64,000 nucleotides of DNA, taken from contig CATKHK010000128.1 in NCBI GenBank assembly GCA_949751835.1, positions 1-64,000 on the forward strand, read 5' to 3'. Position numbers and translations under genes: made by a program. Under the pieces are notes generated by a model that saw nothing but the letters and a program-made list of their open reading frames with translations, was not told the DNA's origin and searched no databases. This DNA comes from Blepharisma japonicum (Eukaryota; Ciliophora; Heterotrichea; Heterotrichida; Blepharismidae). Positions 3,782-64,000 of this stretch are shown piece by piece; within the stretch, counting starts at the first letter, position 1; each line of letters begins with the position of its first letter.

Positions 3782-4546
3782 ATGGAACCCAGGCCACAGG
3801 CAGGAGGCCATGAAGGCATACTAATATTCAGGCGTGATAAAGTACTAAAGAGAGCTCTCCCCTGTGAGCTTAATTTCTATACAAACTTGTTTAACCCAAA
3901 TAATCAAATTCCAATTTTGTTAGAATTTCAAAAATTTGTTCCAAAATTTTACGGATCCCAGCTAATAGATGGGAGTAATTACATAGTTTTAGAAAATTTA
4001 TTATGAGAATATGAGAATCCTTCGATAATGGACTGTAAAATTGGAAGAGTTACATGAACTCGAGATCATTCACCACCAAGATGTGTGACTCAACAATTAC
4101 GAGCCTCAAAAACAACCACGTCAAGTTTAGGTTTTAGAATAACGGGGCTTTTAATTAAAGATCGAGAAGGACATGTAACTGATTCGATTCGGAAAAAGCA
4201 AGTATTTAATATCACGCCCGATAACATTTTGGACTATTTTGCAAGATTAGTTATAAGAGATGATGTTTTTCAAGAAGAAGTGGTTGACCAATTCATTATG
4301 GAAACTCAAGAAATCCTTGATTGATTTAGAAAACAAAGAGTTAGTACATTTTTCACATGCTCTGTATTATATGTGAATGGCTTTAATAAAGCTCAAACGA
4401 AATTTATTGATTTTTCTTATGTATATGAATCAGATGGACAAAGAGATAATAGTAAGAGCTATTTAGATATGATTGAAGGGTTAGAAAGTTTAATTAATAC
4501 TTGGGAAAAGCTTAAAATGAAGTATGCTAAGTCATATTCCTTATAA
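3782..4546 (+). CDS. Inositol polyphosphate kinase (IPMK/IP6K family)
   Basis: 254 residues from ATG 3782 to TAA 4544-4546, with three TGA-Trp codons (4004, 4055 and 4322). The family signature PxxxDxKxG is present as PSIMDCKIG at about residues 80-88. It is followed by SSLGFRITGL (about 117-126), the second conserved family motif, and by IDFSYV near residue 212, which matches the IDF metal/ATP motif. Proteins of this family phosphorylate soluble inositol phosphates (IP3 to IP5, or IP6 to IP7) with ATP, in the cytosol or nucleus. At 254 residues it is compact, closer to IPMK than to the longer IP6Ks; the substrate cannot be decided from sequence alone. It ends convergently with the potassium channel gene at 4853. 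Confidence 0.85.
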
Positions 4547-38207: not shown

Positions 38208-39119
38208 TTAATTGCTAGGACATGTATTAGAGTTCGTAGGAGAAACTTCAAATTTCAGCTCCCTCCAATTCAGCTGGGCTTCTGGAAATTCGTTATAGCC
38301 TTTGGAATTTCGGCACTCAGATCTAGAAGAGTCATCATCTAATATACCACAAAACATATAACTGCAGTTCGCAAAGCCAAATTTATTAGCTCTATAAATA
38401 TCTTGATTGCAGACAGGACACTTATGCTCTCTTCCATCAGACATCTCCAAAATTGCATCGAACTTGCCCATACCCAAACAAATGCACACTCTTTGTTTGT
38501 AAGCAACACATTCATGATTCATGCAGATTCCTTCTAAAACCAATCCTGATTTTTTGATTTTTCACACCGGAACTACCGTGTCTCTCCTCCCGCTATTATT
38601 ATCACTAATAAGCACTGTAATAATTTCGCTCTGCTCAACTCCATAGTCAAGCAGCGTATTGTTATCGTCCAGCTCAATTTCTTTATAGAGAATTTTGACT
38701 TTATTTCGATAATCCCCACTCCCACAGAACCTTTTCCTCAAATTAGAAATTTTTTCATTCCTTGGCAGTGACGCTCTTAGGACCTTTTTGGTATTTTCAC
38801 AAATCATAAAGGAAAGTGTTATTTTTTCAGTTAAATCTTCAGTAACTTCAAGCGAAAGAGAGTCTCCAGAGGTCAAGCCAATTTCATATAAAGGTACGTA
38901 GTGAGTTGATTCAAAGACAGACTGCTTATGCTTGATTTGAAACTTTAAGTGGCATGTTGAAATCCCTTCTTTCAGATTTTGGTGAATAATTTCGCGAGAA
39001 AGCTCACAAAGCCTGGTCGAAAGAGGCTTTTTTACTTTTATTTGAGGTTTAGAGAAGTAAGTCTCGTCAAGATTAATCCAGAATGAAGTATTCGCGCTAG
39101 TTGATTCATTGCAACCCAT
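38208..39119 (-). CDS. Ubiquitin-like protein with N-myristoylation motif and Cys-rich tail
   Basis: 303 residues, joined across one TGA-Trp (38564-38562). The start at 39119 is preferred over an upstream in-frame ATG because it gives MGCNEST, a myristoylation/palmitoylation motif. Two ubiquitin-like segments follow: KITLSFMICENTKKVLRAS with NKVKILYKEIELDDNNTLLDYGVEQSE is the clearer one, having the usual short-turn and delocalised beta pattern. The last 100 residues hold a Cys/His region (GICMNHECVAYKQRVC, CPVCNQDI, FGFANCSYMFCGIL). That region resembles an uncharacterised zinc-binding domain that I recall from ciliate and amoebal ubiquitin-like proteins. No diglycine end is seen, so it is unlikely to be conjugated. 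Probably a membrane-attached adaptor. Confidence 0.7.
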
Positions 39120-39512
39120 TTTTAAGTATTTGCAACTAGTAAGACGTAGATATGGAGAACAAGGAAATAGGAGATTATGGGGATGGGAAATTTTTAAAAA
39201 AGTGTAAAGAAGCAAATAATAATAAAAATAAGGACTCTTAGGGGGAAATTCAGTATAGAAAATTTGTCGAAATTTGTTGCCATTTACTTAGGAGATTTTA
39301 AATTAGATTGTTAATTTATATGCATTTTTGAAGAAATGTTATTTGATATTAGCTTTATTAAAAGCCAATTTTATTTCGAATCTTCATTTAACTTGATGGA
39401 AGATATGAGAATAATAAAGTCTCAACGGTCTATTTTTTTACTAGATAAATGTCCCATAATGATAATTTTATTTTTTGATTATTAAAGCAAAATAAAAATG
39501 TAAATTTTAAAT
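39120..39512. other. Intergenic, AT-rich
   Basis: About 390 bases upstream of the ubiquitin-like gene start; nothing recognised except AT-rich sequence. The sharp rise in GC after 39513 marks the candidate RNA. Confidence 0.4.
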
Positions 39513-39692
39513 GAAGGGTTTCGCAGACCCGTCAATTCAAATACAGGCACTTTATGGTGTATAGCTCGTAGAATTGACATTTGAAATAAAAGAAGAGTTG
39601 AGCCCTTCGGGTGCTCCTCTTCTCTGCCTCACATTCCTAATCCTAGGACATTCCATATGTCGACAGGAGACACCGTGGGCTGACAATTTTTT
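39513..39692 (+). ncRNA. Candidate structured RNA, Pol III-like (family unknown)
   Basis: A GC-richer island of about 180 bases in very AT-rich spacer with four helices on the plus strand. GGGT/ACCC is at 39516-39530. A perfect 8-bp stem GTCAATTC/GAATTGAC (39531-39538 with 39571-39578) encloses a CAC/GTG hairpin. A long hairpin AGAAGAG/CTCTTCT (39591-39623) is capped by GAGCCC-TTCG-GGTGCTC, a classic C(UUCG)G tetraloop. TGTC/GACA is near the 3' end. It ends in TTTTTT (39687-39692), a Pol III terminator. It does not match tRNA, 5S, U1-U6 or SRP landmarks that I can check by eye. A weak ORF at 39574-39822 crosses it and is judged spurious. Confidence 0.5.
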
Positions 39693-39774
39693 AAAAACAA
39701 ACAGAAAACTAAATCGATCTATTTATCCTCTTAAATTTTCTACTTTCTGTGTAAAATTTCCTATAACCCTTCAA

Positions 39775-40206
39775 TTATTCTTTAAAAGACTCCAAAAATG
39801 TGCTTTTATAAGTTTCCTTTAAGCTTGAATTCATATCAAGTAAATTTCCTAGCAGCTTTTCATAGCACTTTTCTTCACAAATAGTCAAATCTTCTTCTCC
39901 GTATTTAGATACAGGGTACTCCGAAGCACATCCAAATACACATTTTTTGCATTGATTGCTGTCATTCGGAAATTTTTTGTTAAAAATCCCAAAAAAGGAA
40001 TCATGCATTTCTTGGCATTCTTTTACGCAGTTTCCTCTAACTTTTTTCCAGTCTTCAAGCCTAACGGGATCTCCACTATAACAGCTTTCGGCACATTTTG
40101 AATATTTTACCTTAACATTTCTCAATATTTTTAAGCCTTTTTCAAGCTCTTCTTCACACTGCTGTGTGAAGCTATAATAGCTGAGTTTTCTCTTAAGATC
40201 ATCCAT
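39775..40206 (-). CDS. Small CX3C-rich cysteine protein, gene 1
   Basis: 143 residues, ATG 40206 to TAA 39775. Predicted all-helical with paired cysteines: CAESC, CVKEC, CKKCVFGC and CEEKC, that is repeated C-x3-C pairs on helices. Twin C-x3-C or C-x9-C helices occur in mitochondrial intermembrane-space proteins oxidised by Mia40 (small Tims, Cox17-like). No signal peptide is present, which fits that route, but the spacing does not match a known family. It lies 27 bp downstream of a second small Cys protein on the same strand. Confidence 0.68.
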   Translation of the reverse strand: MDDLKRKLSYYSFTQQCEEELEKGLKILRNVKVKYSKCAESCYSGDPVRLEDWKKVRGNCVKECQEMHDSFFGIFNKKFPNDSNQCKKCVFGCASEYPVSKYGEEDLTICEEKCYEKLLGNLLDMNSSLKETYKSTFLESFKE

Positions 40207-51565: not shown

Positions 51566-54500
51566 TTATCGGATTTTTTTCTTGACTTTATCCACCATAT
51601 CATTCACATGTTTCATCGCCTTCATCAACTGATCAAACTGTGACGTGTCCACATTTTCAGCAATTTTTTCTACCCTTCTCACTCTCTGCAAAATCTGGTC
51701 TAATAGTGACAAATCAGATTTTTCTCCATCTTTGCCTATTTCTCCACCAATTCTAAGGTTGCTTTCTATATCTTCTTTAGGCTCCCACAATTTCAGCTCT
51801 ACACCGCTATAGGAAATAATTTTCAGTCTTTCTTGTTCTTCCTTGTCTTGCTGCTCAATAAGTTTAAGGTTTTCTTCCTTGTATTTCTGGATCTGTGAGC
51901 TGATTTTTTCTTGGTATTTTTGCTTTCTTTCGTCGAGTTTAGCTTGAAGACGGTTTTTCTGACGGGTTCGCTCGTCTTCCATTGATTTTTCCCATTCGTC
52001 CATTTCTTTTTGGTGCTGCTTGAGCAATTCTTCCATTTTTTCAGGCGAAATTCCTCTTTCTTTCATGACTTCGACCATCATTCTTTGTCTTTCTTCCATA
52101 ATTCGACGCTGCTCTTGGATTTCTTCAAGCCTTCTTTGCTTTTCTTCAACTTCTTTGAGCTGCTCTTGGATGCTGTTGATTTCGAGCTCTTTTCTTCGTT
52201 CGAATTCTCTAAGCTCTTGGCTTCTGAGGTCTAATTCTCGTAGCTTTTCTGCATATAATCTCTCGTTTTCTGACCTCAGCTTGTCTATATCCTTTTCCAT
52301 ATCACTTAAGTTTGCATTGGCCATTCTTGGGTCGCTTTCACTGATTTTCTTGAAAATTTCAGCATTTTCTTTCATATGAGTGTCAGCCAAATCGTTGAAT
52401 TTTTGTCTGAATTCATCTTCGACGTCACGCCAAGCTTGATCTTGCTCTGCATTGAGCTGAGCCATATTATTAAACTCTAACTGATTTTGAGCTTCTTTTT
52501 CACGCGCTTCAAGCTCCTCAGTTTTAGCTTGGAGTTCATCAGGTTTAAGCTTGCTTTTCTTGAGAGCTTCACGTTGGGCTAAGTATTGTGCACGAAGATT
52601 GGCACGCTCTACCGCTTTAATGTTGACAGCAGCTTGGATTAAAGTGTTTTGTCGTTCACGTAATTTTCCATGCTTAAGAGCTGTCAGTTCACCAATTTCT
52701 CTGTCATGTTTGGCTTCCAGTAGCTGTCTTGCAAGACCTATAAGCTCTTCTGGAGACATATTTCCTGTGTTTTCAAGGATATCTTCCATTTTTCTCATCT
52801 CAATGTTGCTTCTTGCATTTCTTTCAGCTTCTTTTTGCTGCATTTCTATATCAAACCGTTCTCTATCTTGCTTTACTTTAATTTGGGCTTCTTTTTCAGC
52901 TCTTCTTCTCTTTCTGTCAAGGAGCCTTTGCTTGAGGTCGGTTTCTTGTTTTCCTTTTTGAATTCCAATGGCTTCGTCTAGCCTATTAATTTCCTTCAAT
53001 ATTTGGTCTTTTTCAGTCTGGCTACTTGCATTTTCTAAGGCTTTAATAAGTCGCTCTTTTTCCTCAGACTGTGCAGCTTCTTCTTGGTCTAGCATATTAT
53101 CAATTTGTAAGAGCTCTTGCTGATGAACTTCTTGAAGTCTAACTAAATCTTGGTCGTATGCTTCTCCAACATCTTCTATTTCTCTTTTCTCATCTTCATT
53201 AAGCAAAATTTCTCCATTTCCTTCAGTAAAAGCCAACAAAGTATTTCTTTCAAGCTGGGCCAGTTCTTCTTGATGTCTTTCCTCCATCTCTTTTTTCTTC
53301 TCTTCATGATTTGCATTAACTCTTCCCAGTCTTCCTTTTCTTCTTTCCTCTAGCCTTTTGAATAAATCGGCCTCTTGCTGTTTCTTATGAGCAGTCAGCT
53401 GGTCTTCAATTCTTTTTGCTTCAATTTCAAAGTTCTTCATCAGTGCATCTGTTTCCTGCTGGTTTTTAGAGTTTGCTAAATCGTTTTGCAGCTGCGTGCG
53501 GATTTCTAAAAGTCTCTGTTCTACTTCTTTTCTGGTCTCTTTTTTGTAGTTTTCTTTCTCATTTAAGTAGTCTTCATTGATAATTTCTACTTCATCTTTA
53601 AGCTCTTTTTCTATAGCTTCCTTCTCTTCCTTTTGTCTAGCAATTATCTCAGCTTTTTTAGGCTCATAGTAAGCTTTTTCTCTTTGAGCAGCTCTTCGTT
53701 TTGCTGCTCTTTCTTGAAGACGCTTATTCAGTTCTGATTGAGAATTTTGTATATCAGCATTAAGAAGCTGATCCAGTCTTTGCATGTTAGCATTTAGCTC
53801 GCCAATCAATTCTTGCTTATCATGTTCCATTAAGTCTGGATTATTTTGGATATCTTTGCTCAAAATTTCAGTATTTTTTACTTCTATTAGTGTCTCTTTC
53901 CTTAAAATTTCAGCTACAGCATCATTATAAGTTGTAGGTATTTCTTCATCAATATTGGCTTCTGGGAGGACAATTTCTTCATCTTCATCAAATTCTGCCT
54001 CCACAATTTTCTGTTTCAATATCTCTGGGTCAATATCAGCCAATTTATCTGCAAGTTGATCTTTCAGTTCTCTGGCTTGTTCCAGCAGCTCATTCAAGCC
54101 TACAGTAGCTTCTTCGTCCTGTGCATCAAAAGCAGCCTTAACTCTGTCATAATACTTGCACAAGTTATCATACATATCTTTAAATTGCGAAGGCTCCAAT
54201 AATTCTTTATCAAAATCAATGCCATCTTCCAAAGACTCCTCAAATGCAGGAACAACAGGCACCAAATTTGACTTAAACCTGCATTTTTTGCAGCAGCTTC
54301 TCAACATTGCATATAACCTTTCTTTAGAGTTCACAGACGCCCAAGCTCTCCAATGCAAAAATGATAAAAATCCTATAATAAGAATAATCAAAATAATCAA
54401 CGCTACAATAATGCCTGCAATTATCCCCCATTGTGGCTCAGTCATGAGATTATCAGCTGCATATATATTTAAAGCATCCAAATTTAAAGAAGTTCTAGCT

Positions 54501-57500
54501 AAAAATGTGACATCTTGGCTTGGACAGCTTTCACTGTCCCCGACGACAGCAATAATAATATGTTTATCAGAGTCAGCATTGTCTACAAAATCATAAATTC
54601 CAGCATCAGTAAAAGTAAAGGCAAAAGTGTCGACGTAGCTTGAGGAAGATTTCATTCTCCATTCGAGCTCTTTGAAGGTAGCATAATCGAAATTTTTATT
54701 GGTATTTAGTAAAGAGTCTTTAAGGTAGACTGGGTAGTGAGAACGAGGGGTTAAAGAGAATAAGAAAGTATCGTTTCGCTTTATACAGGCAATTGGGTTG
54801 GAAAGACCCGCAGAAGTTGAAGCAAGGGAACGGGATTCGTCATCAGTAAGAAGACGGCGGTAGTAAGTGGAGAGGGATGAACCGGTGCCATAAACTCCTT
54901 GAGGGCCGTCTGAGGTCATATCTACGGTATGGACTTTTGAAGAGTCTGAGACGGAGGTAGCTCCAAGATAGTTGGAGCCAGTCATAGATACTGGCCGAGA
55001 TGATCCACTTGAAGGATTGTAAATGTAAAATTGACCATCAGATTTAAGGGTAACGCTGGCTGATGTACTTCTACAAGTAGAGTTGCAGACGTCTTCTTCG
55101 CTAGGTGTATCATCACACACGCAGACACTGTAAGTAGAATCTAAGCTCCCAGAGCCTCCATTACATTCACTTTCACAGCTTCCTGAACTTTTGCAAGACC
55201 CATCAGCTTTTCTTACCTGCCCTGATATGCAATTGGTATACTGTTTTGGTGTACAGTCTTCAGCTGAATCTACCTCACTTTCAGTGACCCCTTCAATTAC
55301 AAACTCATAAGTTGGCAAACATATACAGCTTCCATCATATTTCTGATATCCACGATATTTCCCTTTACAAAGACAAGTATCTTGTCCTGCATCCGAATAA
55401 GCATGCGACCCACAGATTTTGCATTTGCTTAGCCCTTCTTCGTCACCATAAGTATTTGCCGGGCACGACAGACAGGCTGAAGCACTTTTTCCTTTGGTGG
55501 ATGGGTTATAGGTAGTAATTGGACATGGAATAGCTGATTCTGTGCCTTCAGGACAATAATACCCGCTTGGGCAAGGATATCCGCCATCATTACTTAACGT
55601 CTGAGGATTTGAACGTGTAGCGCCAGCTACACAAAGATACCCAGCATCGCATGGGTAACATTTTTCTGACGACGTCCCATTAGCATATAGTCCAGCTCCA
55701 CATTCAATACAAGCATTATCTACCATATAAGTCCCAGGCTCACAAGTTTCTGGGTAAAAGTTAGCTAATTGGCAAATAGTTCCAGTAGGACACTCAATAG
55801 CTTCGTCTTCAGTGTAATATTTAGTAAGGTTAGTGCTATCATATAAAGGACAATAATAATTCACAGGGCATTTTGTAGGAGTTTCTGTAAGATCATTGCA
55901 GATATATCCAGGAGTACATGGGATAGGAGCTGATGAGCCTAATGGACAATAAGTGCCAATTGTGCAAGCAACTGGAGATGTTGTAGCTTCTTCACAATAA
56001 TAGCCTCCAGGACAAGGTGGACAATCACTTGCAGAACCTGCTACACTTGAACTGCCTAGGGTGCCTGGTGGACAAGGAATATAAGATTCAGCCCCTAATA
56101 CACAGAAGTAGCCTTTTTTGCAAGGATATTGGGTATAATCACCTATCCCTGTGCTACTACAATAGTAGCCAGCTGGGCAAGGCTTGCAAGCATTTATGTC
56201 ACTCATTGATTTGCTGCCATTATATGTATATTTAGGACAAGGTGTCGGAGAATTGACGCCAGAAGGACAGTAATTCCCTGTAGGGCAATCAAAAGGTGTA
56301 GGGTTTCCTGTGACACAGTAGCTTCCAGGTGGACAAGTAGTACAGTCAGAAATTTGGGTAGCTCCTGTATTTTTTCTGAATTTTCCTTCAGGGCACTTAG
56401 TTGGTGTTGTTGTTCCTAATCCACAATAATAGCCTGAGGGGCATGGAGTACCTGATAAACTATACACAGCTGGAGTTGAGTAAGGACTAGACTTTTTGCA
56501 CCAAAACCCAGGGGCACACTGTCCAGAAATTCTTCCATCTACACAGTATTGTCCTGATGGGCACACACTGCAGTCTGTATCAACTGTAAGGCCTTCACTA
56601 TCTTTATTATAAGAGCCTGCAGGACAAATAAGCCCATATCCAGTCCCTTGAGGGCAATATTTGTATTGTGGGCATAAGTTGTTTGCATTAGTAGCAGCGT
56701 TGTTGCATTCTCGGCCAGCAGGACAAGTTTTGCATGTATCAAGATTGGTGACATCAGCATAGGTGCCTGGTCCGCATGGGAATTCATTACTATATCGAGT
56801 TCCGGCAGGACAATAATAGCCATTAGGGCAGTTTGTTTGAATTGCAGTAGAACCTGTGCAGTAGTAACCATTTCCGCATTGTGTGCAGGATGATTGCTTA
56901 GTTTGAGTATTATAGTCACCCATTGCACAAGGTATAGGGACCCAGCTGCCTGTGCCACAGTAATAGCCTGTAGGACATTCACCTTCTGGAGGGGTAGGTG
57001 TTGCTTTTCCAGGATCACAATAATAGCCGGCAGTGCAGTCTCCTGTAGGAGAGCTTAGACCTTGACTATTACAATATTTGCCATAAGGACAGTCAAGACA
57101 TTGAGTATAGTCGCTTAAGCCCTTTGAAGGACTATAAGTTCCAGCTGAACAAGGAGTTACAGCAGAACTTTCTGTAGGACAATAGTTCCCAGCAGAACAG
57201 ATATTTCCATGAGTTCCATCTGTTGGGTTTGCAACTTTAGACCCAGCCAAACAATAGTAGCCAGCTAAACATGACCCTGATTGGGCTGCTAATGCATAAC
57301 CTCCACAATAAAGGCCAGCTTCGCAAATGGTTTTTGAACTGCTTCCTGCAGGACAATAATTGCCAGGGTCACAAATTCCACCAGTTGCGTCACCTTTAGG
57401 CATAGACGTAACAGCTCCCCCAGTACAATAATACCCATCAGCACATACATCTTGATAAAGTGCAGCTCCAAGGGTTGGGCAGTACTTTCCAGCGTCACAC

Positions 57501-60500
57501 GTCACACAAGCTGTACTTGCGCTTTGGCCGATCAAGCTATTATAAGTTCCAACTGGACATGGATTAGAATAAATATAACCAGTCCCTGATGGACAATAAT
57601 ACCCCATAGGGCACAATGTTTCTGAGGTAGCTCCTAAGTCGCAGTAATACCCTGGATCACACGTAACACATGAAGATTGTTTTGTATTCATTTGATAGTT
57701 TCCAGCAGGACACAAAATCTCTTCAGCTGTGCCAGCAGGGCAATAATAGCCTCTATCGCATTCTTTTGTAGGCGTAATGTCTCCTCCAGGGCAATAAAAA
57801 CCAGATGTACAAGATTGCCTCATATTTGATGAGCTAGTGCTGCCATCACAGAAATAACCTGGGGAGCATGTGATGCACTCATTACTTGCAGAAGCTCCGG
57901 TGTATGGCAAGTAGTATCCTGCGTTACATTGGACAGGAGAAGCAGGTCCAGTGCAGTAATACATAGCTGAGCAAATATTTCCAGTGGTGCCATCAGTTGG
58001 GGCTGGAGTTGTAGCTGCTGATTTACAGTAATAACCGGCTTGACAACTATTAGAAACGGCGAATAATTCATCGTCTGAACAGTATTTTCCAGAATCACAA
58101 GGAATGCTTGATGTAGAGCCTTGTGGGCAGTAATAGCCTGGATTGCAACGGCCTCCGTATGTTTGGTTTTCTTGAGGTCGGGAAGTTGTAGACTTTGAAA
58201 TACAGTAAAAGCCTGGGTCGCATTGTCCAGCAACAGCAGAAGCTCCTAGTTGGTTGCAGTAATAGCCTGGTGTACAATCGATGCATGCAGAACTTGACTG
58301 CTGGCCTGAGTTAGGGTTGTAAGTGCCTATAGGACATGGATATTGCTTAGGATATGAAGTTCCTGATAAACAATAATAGCCTATAGGGCACACATTTGCA
58401 GTGTAGTCTGATGTACCTGGCGGACAATAGTAGCCAGGAGGGCATGTCTGACAACTTGCTTGGTTCGTAAGGTCTTGATAAGTGCCTGCTGCGCAGAGTA
58501 ATTGTACTGCAGATCCTTGTGGACAATAGTATCCTGCTGCACATATGCCACCTCCTGGCTCTCTTGTAGTAGATGATTCAGTGCAATACCATCCTTGCCG
58601 ACATTGAGTGCCTGTATACGCTGATAACCCTGTGCTTGTGCATGCATATCCGGCAGGGCAAGGGAGACAATGAGTTGGATCACTTCCTGTGGTGCTTGGA
58701 TTAAATGAGCCAGTAGGGCAAGCTATTTGAGCAGAACTTCCTAAACAATAATTCCCGACTGGGCATGGGCCGTAATATCCTGGAACATCAGTATAAGGTT
58801 GAGGGTATGGAGAACTTGAGGTACAGTAGTAGCCAGCAGAACATGAGCCTGCCACAGCAATTTGACCAGAGTACAAACAGTAGTTATTAGCGTCACATAG
58901 ATTGCAATCATCAATGCTTTGGCCTCCTGATCCTAATCTGTATGTTCCTGGAGGACAAAATTTTCCAATAAATGAGCCTTGTAAACAATATTTTCCAGTT
59001 TCACATGTTGTCATAGATGTCAGTGTTGTAGTAGGACAATAATTTCCTGGGTCACATGATATACAAGCAGAAGCTGCAGGGCTTGGATTATAAGTTCCAG
59101 CAGGACATGCAATTTGGGCAACACTTCCTGAAGGTGCATAGTACCCTGCTGAAGCAGGAAGACGATTCGCAGTTGACTCACCTGCTGGACAGTAGTATCC
59201 TGGATTGCACATACCTGTTGGTGATGGGCTCAAATCAGTGCCTGCACAGTAATATCCAGGCCAACAAGTAACACAGTCAGTTGCCGACCTTCCTCCATCA
59301 AAATTGTTAAAAGTCCCTGCGCTGCATTTTTGAGGCGAGGTTGTCCCTGCAGGGCAATACCCTCCGGCAGGACACTTTTTTCCAGTTTGACCATCATTTG
59401 GTGTAGCTATAGAAGCTCCCCCAGAGCAGTAAAACCCTGCTGTGCAGGTAGCTGTTTTAGTAGTTTGGCCTGGAGATTGACAATAATAGCCAGCGTCGCA
59501 CGAAGTGCAGTCTGTAGAAGTAGCCAATCCTGTGGCAGCTCCATAAGTGCCGCTTGGGCATTGCAGAGGTGTAATAGTCCCTGATGGGCAGTATGATCCA
59601 ATAGTACAAATAGTTGGGGTGATTGTAGCTGTTGTCGGACAATAGTACCCAGGAGTGCATGAGGCACAGTCAGACACAGAAGCTCCACCAGTAGGCCCTC
59701 TATAAGTTCCAGCAGGGCAAGCCATAGCCATAGATGATGTGGAGCCTTTAGGGCAATAATAGCCAGGACTGCATAAATAGGAGGAATAGTCTGACACTCC
59801 AGTAATGCTTACATAGTACCCAGCTGGCACAGTTTTGCAGTCGTTGACAGATTTAGCGCCTTGAGTATTTCTATAAGTACCTACAGGGCAGGGTGTCCCT
59901 GATGAGGAGCCTTCAGGGCAATATTGGCCAGCTGGACATCCATTTGAAGTTGCCAAAGGGTATAACTTAGGGTAAGTACTCATACCTGAAGCACATATGA
60001 ACCCAGCTGGACAAACTGATAAATACATCATAAGCTCTGAAGTAGCTGCCTGAGCACAGAAATACCCAGCCTTACATAAAATTGGTGTTGTAGCCCCTTC
60101 ATAAGTATAATAGCCAGCATTTGCGCTTTGGCAAGTAGTAGAACCTGCAGCATTTGAATATTTTCCAGCTGGACACCTTTTACAGCTGGGATAAACCCCT
60201 GGTCCTCCATCTTGAGCTCCTAGTTCGTCCATATATGTACCAGCTGGACAGGTTATAGGTGGTGTTGAAGTAGAATCATAACCAGGGCAAAACTTTCCAA
60301 CAGGACAAAATATGCACTCTCCTTGGTCACTTGCCCCACCTGTGCTATAAGTCCCTACTGGACATATATATTGCTTATCATAAGTAGTGCCTCTAGGGCA
60401 ATAATACCCAGTTGGGCAAGTGTTTGAAGAATATGTAGACGTCCCAGCTGGACAATAGTAGCCTGCAGGACAAATTAAGCATTCATGGACTCCTTCTACA

Positions 60501-63500
60501 CGAGTATTCGCATTATATGTGCCAGCAGGGCATGGAAATTCTGTAGTAAAATGTGTACCAATTGGACAATAATACCCAGCAGCACATACTACAGGAGGGT
60601 TATTAACATAGTTTGTACCATATCCGCAAGCAAAGCCAGGAGGACATTGGTCACATTGGGCTAAGCCATAAGCCCCATACATGGTGCCGAGAGTACCTGG
60701 AGGGCATGGGTTTTGGGTTTTGCGGTTTGAGCCTTCTGGGCAATAGTAGCCGATTTCACATTTTATGGTAGCTTCTACTGTGCCAGCTCCTGGGCATGCA
60801 TAGCCAGCAGGACAGACCCAGCAGCTGCTTAGAGGGTTTCCTTGGTATGGGCCAACTTTTCCTGGAGCACAAAGAACTGGCTGTTGTGAACCTGAACTGC
60901 AGGAAGTCCCTGCTGGACATAATAAGCAGTCTTCTATTTTATATTTCCCTGTTAATGAGTTATAAGTGCCTTCTGGGCATGCTGTAGCAGATGTACTTCC
61001 AATCGGGCAAATGTTTCCTGTAGGACAAATGGTAGGATTTGCAGTACCTGCAGCGCAGTAGTAGCCTTCAGGACATTGTAAACAGTATCCTGCTGAAATA
61101 GCTCTAAGTTTTTTATAGTAAGTCCCTCCTGGACAGTTTGTACCAGTAGATACTCCTGAAGCGCAGTATTGTCCTTGTGGGCATGGGTAGTTTTCATAGT
61201 TTCCTGTGCCAGCAACACATAGATATCCTAATGGACAGTTAAAGCAAAAAGTGCTGTCATAAGCTCTGACAACAGCATTAAATTTACCAGCTCCGCATTG
61301 AGTCATTGAAGAACTCCCATCACAGTAGTAACCTGGCCAACATTCAAATCCAATCATATCTGGCCTATCTGCATTATTTGGTAGCCAGAAGCCTATAAAT
61401 GCTGAGCTTATAGTTTTTGACCCAATATAAGAGTATTTGTTGGAAGAAGCATAATTGCCAGCGCCATCTTCTCCTCCTGGTATTGGATAGCACCATCCCC
61501 ATCCTGATGAACAAATAATATTATCTTTCCAAGCATTATAACTCTTTACATAATCATCAACATTTGTGGATGTTGCAACGCCGCTTCCACTAGTTGTCAG
61601 GCCTGGATAACTTGCTAAAGTTGTCGTTGATTTGCAATAGGCTGAGCCTGCAACAGAGTCATAATTTGCTGGACAAGATTTTGGCCTAGCACCTGATCCA
61701 GTTCCTTCACTGGCTGAACAATAAGAGCTAGCAGGGCAAAGTTTGCACATGCTTTCTCCTGAGGCTCTATATGTCCCTTCAGGGCAAATCCTTGTAGGTC
61801 CTTGGAAAGGATCGCATTCCATATTATCAGGACAAGTCAGACAAGTGTCCATCCCAGCTAAAGAATAAGTCCCAGCACTGCAGGCAGTATATGAACTTCC
61901 ACTACAAGAAACCCCAGCAGGACAAGGCACACACATATCAGGAGATCCTACTATTATATATCCGCTTGGGCACGCAACTGTAAAAGAGTATTCAGGACCT
62001 GGAGCCATATAGCCAGAAGAAGGTGTGCTGCAAGACCCGGAGCCTGGAGCTGAGTACTGTCCTTGGACACATCGCTGCATTTGATAGCCGCTTTGGTTTG
62101 GGCATGAAAAACCGCCTGGGCAGCCAAGACAAAATGAATAATATTCATATGAGTAAGTCCCGGCAGCGCAGGATTGTGCACTTAGAGTAGGGTCTGGACA
62201 ATATTTCCCTGCCGCACAAGCTGTACAGACCATATCATTTTGGGCTGAATAAGTCCCAGGAGGACATGGGACTGGAGTAGACCCCATGCAGTTAAACCCA
62301 GCAGGACATGTACATTTCGGCCCATTTGGCCACGCATAAGGTGCATTTATACAAATATTGGCCACAGAAACTGCTATAGTTGTAGTAGCGCTGCCATATC
62401 CTCCATTTGCCCCAGTTAGTGTAACAGCTACTGATGTATACGGAGTACTTCCCATTGACCCAGCTGCTGCATATATAGTAGCCTGTTTAAATAACTTGTA
62501 ATCAGAGGTCGTAAAGGTTAATGAAGAGGTCGTCAATGATAAATTTGTAGTATCTGTAGATGCTATACTTACAGTCACGGTTGCTGATGGCTGTGAGGAC
62601 AGTCATACATCAAAAGTCGCATATTGTTTACTTTGAACCAAAATAGCTGAGTTGCTTACTTTTATAGTAGGAGAACTTGCAGGAAGAATAACTGCTGTTG
62701 TAGTTTTATCTGAAGGATAAAAGATCGCACTATTGAAATTTGAATCTGATGTAGAGACTGAATAGGTAATTGTAGTAGTTTGATAAGGAGATGAGGCAAT
62801 TGAAGGGCCCGTTATTAAAATTCGTTGTGTGCTCCAGCTTGAAGACGTAAAAGTTACTTGGCTTGCGCTTAGTGTTATATATGAGTTACTTAATGATAGC
62901 GAAACTACTACATCTGATGATGGCGCAGATCCGATTGAGATGTAGAGTTGAGTGCTGTCTTTGGCTTGGAGACCTACAGAAGAGTCTGCTTGAATATAAT
63001 ATTTTGTACTCCCATATATTGGCACAGAAATTGAGCCTGAAGAAGCAGTTAGGCAGGTTTGGAAATTAGCGACACCGTTGTAGGTGGAATCTGATGAAGA
63101 AATTGAGTGGATCACACCAATGTTAACGGGGTAAGAAGAGGAAGCAAGCATCCCAGTGTTGAAGTAAACTTTTTGAGCTGTGGCGTAGTTTGAGCTTGTA
63201 AATGTCAGGGAAGTTGTAGTGATTTCTAAAGAGGAGGAGTCTTTTGAGCTGAGAGAAACGACCACATTAGATAGTGGTGCATCTGTTAAATATATTTGGT
63301 AATATTGGTTATAAGTTGCTTCAAAAATTGCATCAACAAAGTTTATTGCTAGCTCTCCATTAGAATATGATGTTGCTGAAAAAGTTGTTGAGAAAGCTGA
63401 ATATCCTGAACAAAGGGCTTCAACTGTTATTGACCCAGTTCCTGTATAAATTACATTGGAAAACGACAAACTCCCCAGATTAAGGGTTGCACTCCCACCA

Positions 63501-64000
63501 CTGCTTATCTGTCCATTTCCTGACTTTGCTTGCAAGTAGCATTGGATGCTCGAAACAACTTTATTTCCGCTTGAATCTGTGACAGTTGCCGTCACGGAAA
63601 ATCCTGATCCTTTATAAATAGTAGTTGGATAAGAGTTAAACGTTATAGATGACGGAGTTCCTGAAGATATCGTAAAAGAGTTGCTATAAGCATCGCTGAG
63701 CCCTGAAGCACTTGCTTTTAACACAAAGGTCCCAGCTCCAGAAACAGAGCATGAACTAAAAGTACTAGCACCACTTGTGGCTGTCACTGAAACACTTGAC
63801 ATTGTCCCATATCCACTTCCAGGTATCAAATTCAGCGTAATTGAGCTGGCAAAGGATGTATCCACGGTATTTTTACCTATAGGAGGTTTTAAAACTTGGA
63901 CTATTACATTGCTGGAACAAGGGTTAGATGTACTTGTAGGCTGAGCTGAAAAATAAAGCATTTGTGAGGTGCCTGAAGTAATAGTAAAAGCACTGCTGGA
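51566..64000 (-). CDS. Giant GCC2/GCC3-repeat type I membrane protein, 3' part
   Basis: Frame open from the window edge (64000) to TAA 51568-51566: over 4,140 residues, with one TGA-Trp (62605-62603) and about 17 TGG. Order from the visible N-terminus: several beta-sandwich modules rich in Ser/Thr (about 62360-64000, SITFNSYPTTIYKGSGFSV type). Then several dozen Cys-rich modules of the pattern CPAGYYC...CPxGTY...C (55560-62310), the GCC2/GCC3-like repeats of large ciliate surface proteins. A cysteine knot and a beta-rich juxtamembrane domain follow, then one transmembrane helix (WGIIAGIIVALIILIILIIG, about 54360-54430). A 900-residue charged coiled coil lies inside the cell. It looks like a receptor or cortical/extracellular-matrix linker. 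The 5' end is missing. Confidence 0.88.
52890..53750 (-). repeat. Three spaced motif copies in the coiled-coil tail of the giant gene
   Basis: The same basic motif occurs at about 53700-53745 (NSQSELNKRLQERAAKRRAA), 53327-53382 (QQEADLFKRLEERRKGRLGR) and 52890-52950 (KQETDLKQRLLDRKRRRAEK), spaced about 125 and 145 residues. This suggests internal duplication within the coiled coil. Confidence 0.6.
55560..62310 (-). repeat. Cys-rich GCC2/GCC3-like repeat array (within the giant gene)
   Basis: About 2,250 residues of near-tandem modules, each with C-x-x-G-x-(Y/T)-(Y/C) blocks such as CPAGYYCPAGT, CPPGTY and CDPGYYC. Units differ in length (about 16-45 residues) and are diverged, so no perfect DNA period is seen. 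Plus-strand ORFs across this region are antisense shadows. Confidence 0.85.

Follow-up and report, generated by a model that had tools for sequence, protein, structure and literature searches.

The window analysed here is a 64,000-nt stretch of Blepharisma japonicum DNA, in whose contig (C128) TGA must be read as an amino acid for many long frames to stay open. The element under study occupies 39513–39692 on the plus strand, within a spacer flanked by two frames of the minus strand, one at 38208–39215 (TGA read through) and the other at 39775–40206. It is single copy, with one match in the 45.2-Mb genome of 224 contigs. Elsewhere in the window, the minus strand of 51566–63961 can be read through a single TGA as a frame of 4131 aa, and the G+C content, mostly 26–37%, rises to 40–48% from 54 kb onward.

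The first-pass annotation had described this element as a structured RNA with a 13-bp stem capped by C(UUCG)G, a perfect 8-bp inverted repeat, further helices and a T6 end, and had proposed folding with energy statistics as a check. We compared the element with 200 dinucleotide shuffles. The minimum free energy (MFE) of the plus strand was −52.5 kcal/mol versus −41.3 ± 3.7 kcal/mol for the shuffled sequences (z = −3.03), and none of the 200 shuffles was as stable. The reverse strand folded more weakly (z = −2.12; six of 200 shuffles as stable). The MFE structure contained the UUCG hairpin at 39591–39623, with 13 pairs and two bulges, as well as helices at 39516–39530 and 39626–39680; the inverted repeat was located at 39531–39538/39571–39578 and the T6 run at 39687–39692. 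The helices that the annotation described were present in this structure. The MFE structure had a frequency of only 0.01 on this strand, indicating a mixed ensemble. The two 5' hairpins persisted in the centroid structure (−35.1 kcal/mol), in which longer-range pairing took the place of both the UUCG hairpin and the stem at the base of the 3' hairpin.

A covariance-model search with Rfam, also proposed by that annotation, did not name the element: no family reached its gathering score in the window, and at E ≤ 10 the region 39216–39774 gave six weak, mutually unrelated matches, with U17/snR30 not among them. The Rfam model SNORA73 matched nothing in the whole genome at E ≤ 10. An Rfam score is a detection limit and not a defining trait of U17/snR30. 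The annotation could not match the element to a known RNA; its layout and motifs point to U17/snR30. The predicted RNA of about 180 nt (39509–39688) has, from the 5' side, 5' hairpin 1 (39516–39530), present in both the MFE and the centroid structures, and 5' hairpin 2 (39531–39578), in which the inverted repeat forms a perfect 8-bp lower stem. The hinge contains an H-box candidate, AAATAA (ANANNA), at 39584–39589; it lies in an A-rich linker, is not distinctive and is weak alone. The UUCG hairpin follows as the internal hairpin. The 3' H/ACA hairpin (39626–39680) consists of a singly bulged basal stem (GCC-CAC/GUG-GGC), a pocket and an upper stem, and its free MFE structure was the same as the pocket-constrained fold (−16.1 kcal/mol). 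An ACA box is located at 39683–39685, 14 nt below the top of the pocket in both the MFE and the constrained folds, which agrees with the distance of 14–16 nt in box H/ACA RNAs. The 3' end ACAAUU would put the RNA terminus 3 nt past the ACA box, as in box H/ACA RNAs.

Two motifs line the pocket. The m1 motif, ACAUUCCUA (39631–39639), is identical to the consensus AUAUUCCUA at eight of nine positions, with the core AUUCC at 39633–39637. The m2 motif, ACACCGU (39670–39676), agrees with the consensus AAACCAU at five of seven positions, with the core ACACC at 39670–39674. In the motif table of PMC7601244, 11 of 14 rows have AUAUUCCUA as m1 and three, including Tetrahymena, deviate from it solely at the final base; all 14 rows share AAACCAU as m2. 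The departures of our element therefore affect motifs that are nearly invariant in that table, a counterpoint to the U17/snR30 reading.

We then examined the 18S rRNA of the same organism, whose gene is located on the minus strand of contig G000:C102 (about 5474–3773). Its expansion segment ES6, CATGGAATAATAGAAGAGTACTGGGTTCCATTTATTGGTGTTAT, provides GGAAUA as rm1 and UGGUGU as rm2. In yeast, rm1 is GGAAUA (18S 801–806) and rm2 is UGGUUU (836–841), with letters taken from the forward (rm1) and reverse (rm2) primers of a C798–G846 construct and positions counted by us (PMC9176245). The cryo-EM description of yeast snR30 places an rRNA helix, 806–836, between the two hybrids (PMC12095548), which on our reading confines the core target in yeast to GGAAU and GGUUU. 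Both cores of the element paired with the Blepharisma ES6 at five of five positions (AUUCC with GGAAU, ACACC with GGUGU), all in Watson–Crick pairs. The A-to-C change in the m2 core is matched by a U-to-G change in rm2 (GGUGU versus the GGUUU given for yeast). In addition, the change of m1 U2 to C faces the change of m2 A6 to G, turning a consensus U–A pair into a C–G pair atop the basal stem. None of the three departures from the consensus is thus left uncompensated. With the 6-nt motifs as published for yeast, the pairing was five of six at rm1 (one C–A mismatch) and six of six at rm2 (one G–U pair).

Across 5,474 nt examined on the rDNA side, ES6 alone gave the ordered 5 + 5 Watson–Crick match; the opposite order was matched once, downstream, at 4198 and 4212. 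When hexamer pairs of equal composition were drawn at random, 408 of 1,000,000 reached the observed 5 + 6 pairs (G–U allowed) at ES6. The rRNA helix between rm1 and rm2 is weak in this 18S (−0.3 kcal/mol); by eye, AAUAGA and UUUAUU are still able to pair at its base.

The motifs were judged against shuffled and genome-wide controls; as the likeness to m1 was noticed beforehand, these statistics are in part post hoc. When the element was dinucleotide-shuffled 200,000 times, 137 of the resulting sequences had the motifs in order with the spacing and the ACA; eight of these also formed at least five pairs in the basal stem, and three also reached −10 kcal/mol, compared with −16.1 kcal/mol and a 6-bp basal stem for the real element in the pocket-constrained fold. 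A loose m1/m2/ACA pattern gave 95 rows genome-wide (53 and 42) at 93 loci, and 110 (53 and 57) in the reversed control. Since the pattern was no commoner than in the control, the motifs alone prove nothing, and fold and promoter are needed as filters. The best pocket-constrained fold among the 93 loci was that of the candidate. In five other loci the basal stem reached 5 bp or more and the upper stem 4 bp or more, with weaker folds, and no locus of the 93 but the candidate had TCCC[AT]TAA within 280 nt upstream. In viral contigs, the motif scan matched at least 120 stretches, and an ES6 pattern had no match there.

The layout, the m1 and m2 motifs, the compensated pairing with the organism's own 18S and the H/ACA geometry together argue that the locus is an independent gene for a diverged U17/snR30 H/ACA snoRNA of a heterotrich ciliate, a reading to which we assign a probability of about 0.88. 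Against it count the missing Rfam match, the departures in m1 and m2, the rm1 mismatch when 6-nt motifs are used, the weak rRNA helix, the mixed ensemble, the undistinctive H box and a motif pattern that is no commoner than its control. The predicted fold, the motifs, the complementarity and the class of promoter can be read from the sequence. In the open-licence literature searched, no paper dealt with a Blepharisma snoRNA or telomerase RNA; compensatory change at the rm2 of snR30 came up solely in the review PMC7601244, and a search for Stentor coeruleus snoRNAs gave just a Paramecium genomics paper.

The upstream element (PSE/USE), AAATGTCCCATAA, is located at 39447–39459, and the identical 13-mer stands before the U6 gene; TGTCCC[AT]TAA occurs in the window only as this element. 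A TATA-like box, TATTAAAG, is located at 39480–39487, 20 nt after the PSE. The upstream element combined with a TATA-like box was found at 18 places genome-wide versus three in the reversed control; these were U6, the candidate, five members of a small-RNA family and 11 others that look like chance. Variants of the upstream element precede the SRP RNA gene and three of three U2 genes. The RNase MRP RNA gene, identified by an Rfam match (G000:C132:35600–35801), had no TCCC[AT]TAA in the 85 bases upstream of its Rfam start.

The small-RNA family comprises L040, L041, L045, L046 and L047 (G000:C62, C72, C144, C186 and C213), each about 76–154 nt up to a T run. Its members share the upstream element with a 26-nt gap; their 5' ends resemble CAAUGUCAAGGAGAUACUUCU and their 3' ends resemble CUCUCCUGGCGCAGUG, and the two can close a stem. 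Rfam gave no match for any of the five; as a guess, they are perhaps Y-RNA-like. We also observed that the sequence at 39447–39459, TGTCCCATAA, resembles the plant USE, quoted as RTCCCACATCG in PMC9845283, in its TCCCA core.

When the gaps were lined up at the shared box, which was our choice, most genes matching two overlapping registers two bases apart, the distance from PSE to TATA was 20 nt in U2a, U2b and U2c (three of three) and in the candidate, which has a single box, and 26 nt in all seven other genes (U6, SRP, L040, L041, L045, L046 and L047). With the first register instead, U2 had a gap of 18 or 20 nt, and six of the other seven genes had one of 24 nt; L041 had an extra TTTAA at 14 nt. 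The comparison covers 11 genes, two of which (L045 and L046) are near-identical copies. From the polymerase classes that U6, SRP and U2 have in other eukaryotes, we take a gap of 26 nt to denote Pol III, as the L040 family with its T runs also suggests, and one of 20 nt to denote Pol II. The U2 genes start 48–49 nt past the PSE, and carry AACTGAA 10–12 nt past their Rfam ends. The candidate has a possible 3' box, AACAGAA (39700–39706), 11 nt past its predicted end, and a match of this type was reached by 2.2% of shuffled flanks. As judged from the U2-type gap of 20 nt, the candidate is probably made by Pol II; U2 promoter spacing would place its start near A39509, and the T6 is probably incidental and no terminator.

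The same U17/snR30 RNA could instead be a Pol III product ending at T6, a variant of the main reading that does not exclude it. A Pol III type 3 gene was our initial reading. In its favour, the T6 forms a terminal T run that begins one base past the ACA box, the upstream 13-mer is that of U6, and the 53 nt from the 13-mer to the first GC-rich hairpin block (39513) equal the distance to the U6 start. It was later disfavoured by the gap, which is 20 nt as in three of three U2 genes and not 26 nt as in the seven others. The U2-like AACAGAA downstream argues against Pol III too, and the T6 stands in an AT-rich flank, with U2a likewise followed by TTTT. We therefore regard the Pol III variant as rather unlikely. 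Of the two suggestions in the first-pass annotation, a new Pol III RNA or a diverged snRNA/snoRNA, the diverged snoRNA was upheld and the Pol III origin was disfavoured by the spacing.

The element might also be an ordinary pseudouridine-guide H/ACA snoRNA whose likeness to m1 and m2 arose by chance. Its 3' hairpin is canonical for H/ACA, including the 14-nt distance from pocket to ACA. We searched the 5,474 nt of rDNA-side sequence for guide targets in the productive (distal) orientation, a stretch that contains the 18S gene and none of the three conserved 28S motifs looked for, and so covers only a minor part of 28S; one U2 and U6, searched as well, gave no site. The best two rDNA-side sites scored 6, whereas the best scores of 100 shuffles, sorted and taken at every tenth, were 0, 0, 6, 6, 7, 7, 7, 7, 8 and 9. 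In the sequence searched, no guide target thus rose above the shuffles, and we consider this explanation improbable. An unrelated new family of structured RNA would agree with the lack of an Rfam match; it would leave the joint occurrence of m1, m2, the compensated 18S pairing and the H/ACA geometry to coincidence, and we rate it as slightly less probable still.

SRP RNA, RNase MRP RNA and U6 were rejected, each being found at another locus. RNase P RNA and U3 were not reported by the Rfam scans of the region, and none of the boxes that we take to be conserved in these two RNAs was seen in the element. Ciliate telomerase RNAs have a similar size and snRNA-type promoters, which fits the element, and the tandem CCTAATCCTA, which the first-pass annotation had called template-like, is indeed present, formed by the end of m1 and the start of the upper stem. 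A telomerase RNA was rejected as very improbable because the telomere repeat contradicts such a template and the Rfam search agreed: the organism's own telomeres consist of CCCTAACA repeats, as published for Blepharisma (PMC9942806) and as seen in four of 20 300-base contig ends (L016, L021, L026 and L027), which start with permuted forms of CCCTAACA; the element contains neither CCCTAAC nor its complement; and the Telomerase-cil match, at another locus, reached only E = 5.33. The template role assigned to CCTAATCCTA was thus not sustained.

Under the U17/snR30 reading, a U2-class snRNA-type promoter, probably served by Pol II, would give an RNA of about 180 nt, which may be bound by the H/ACA core proteins Cbf5, Nop10, Gar1 and Nhp2, as expected from the family. 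The basal 3' pocket, with AUUCC of m1 and ACACC of m2, would clamp the pre-18S rRNA at GGAAU and GGUGU of ES6. Such a clamp would keep ES6 open during assembly of the 40S platform and allow the early 18S cleavages, and the RNA would act without pseudouridylation. Utp23, Kri1 and Krr1 are the partners predicted from the family. We infer the transcription, polymerase, RNP assembly and function of the candidate by analogy with U17/snR30, the action and partners of which are treated in parts of PMC7601244 and PMC12095548.

If the reading is correct, the m2 variant with its matching 18S change would be independent evidence for an essential pairing between snR30 and 18S, and the element could serve as a seed for finding U17/snR30 in other heterotrichs, where the library model may miss the RNA. 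A gap of 20 or 26 nt could be the switch between Pol II and Pol III in this ciliate, which would amount to a simple rule for polymerase choice in an organism far from the usual models. We give roughly even odds to the combined proposal that U17/snR30 and ES6 of 18S co-evolved changed m2/rm2 and basal-stem pairs, and that one upstream element serves both polymerases, the 20- or 26-nt distance to TATA setting the choice in the reverse of the plant rule and placing U17/snR30 in the Pol II class.

Several known systems can be compared with the locus. In plants, according to PMC9845283, the distance between the element and TATA is shorter by one helical turn in Pol III genes than in Pol II genes, so the order of spacings in Blepharisma would be reversed if our class assignment holds. 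The organism's own U2 genes (L079, L080 and L081) have the same type of promoter element, the 20-nt gap and a similar downstream motif; their product is a spliceosomal RNA, and no relation to the candidate RNA was noticed. According to PMC6315972, the Tetrahymena snoRNAs TtnuCD32 and TtnuCD33 are independent genes with an snRNA-like upstream element. PMC7601244 divides human U17 into four hairpins: a pair ahead of the H box, then a small internal one and finally the 3' hairpin. The MFE structure of the element shows the same order, its ACA box lying 14 nt from the pocket. Human U17/SNORA73 differs in having the consensus AUAUUCCUA and AAACCAU, versus ACAUUCCUA and ACACCGU in the element, and in its length of 207 nt versus the predicted 180 nt or so, and the element escapes Rfam. 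Tetrahymena U17, as given in the same source, is likewise a ciliate RNA with m1 and m2; it differs in its m1, AUAUUCCUG, in its consensus m2, AAACCAU, and in its length of about 240 nt.
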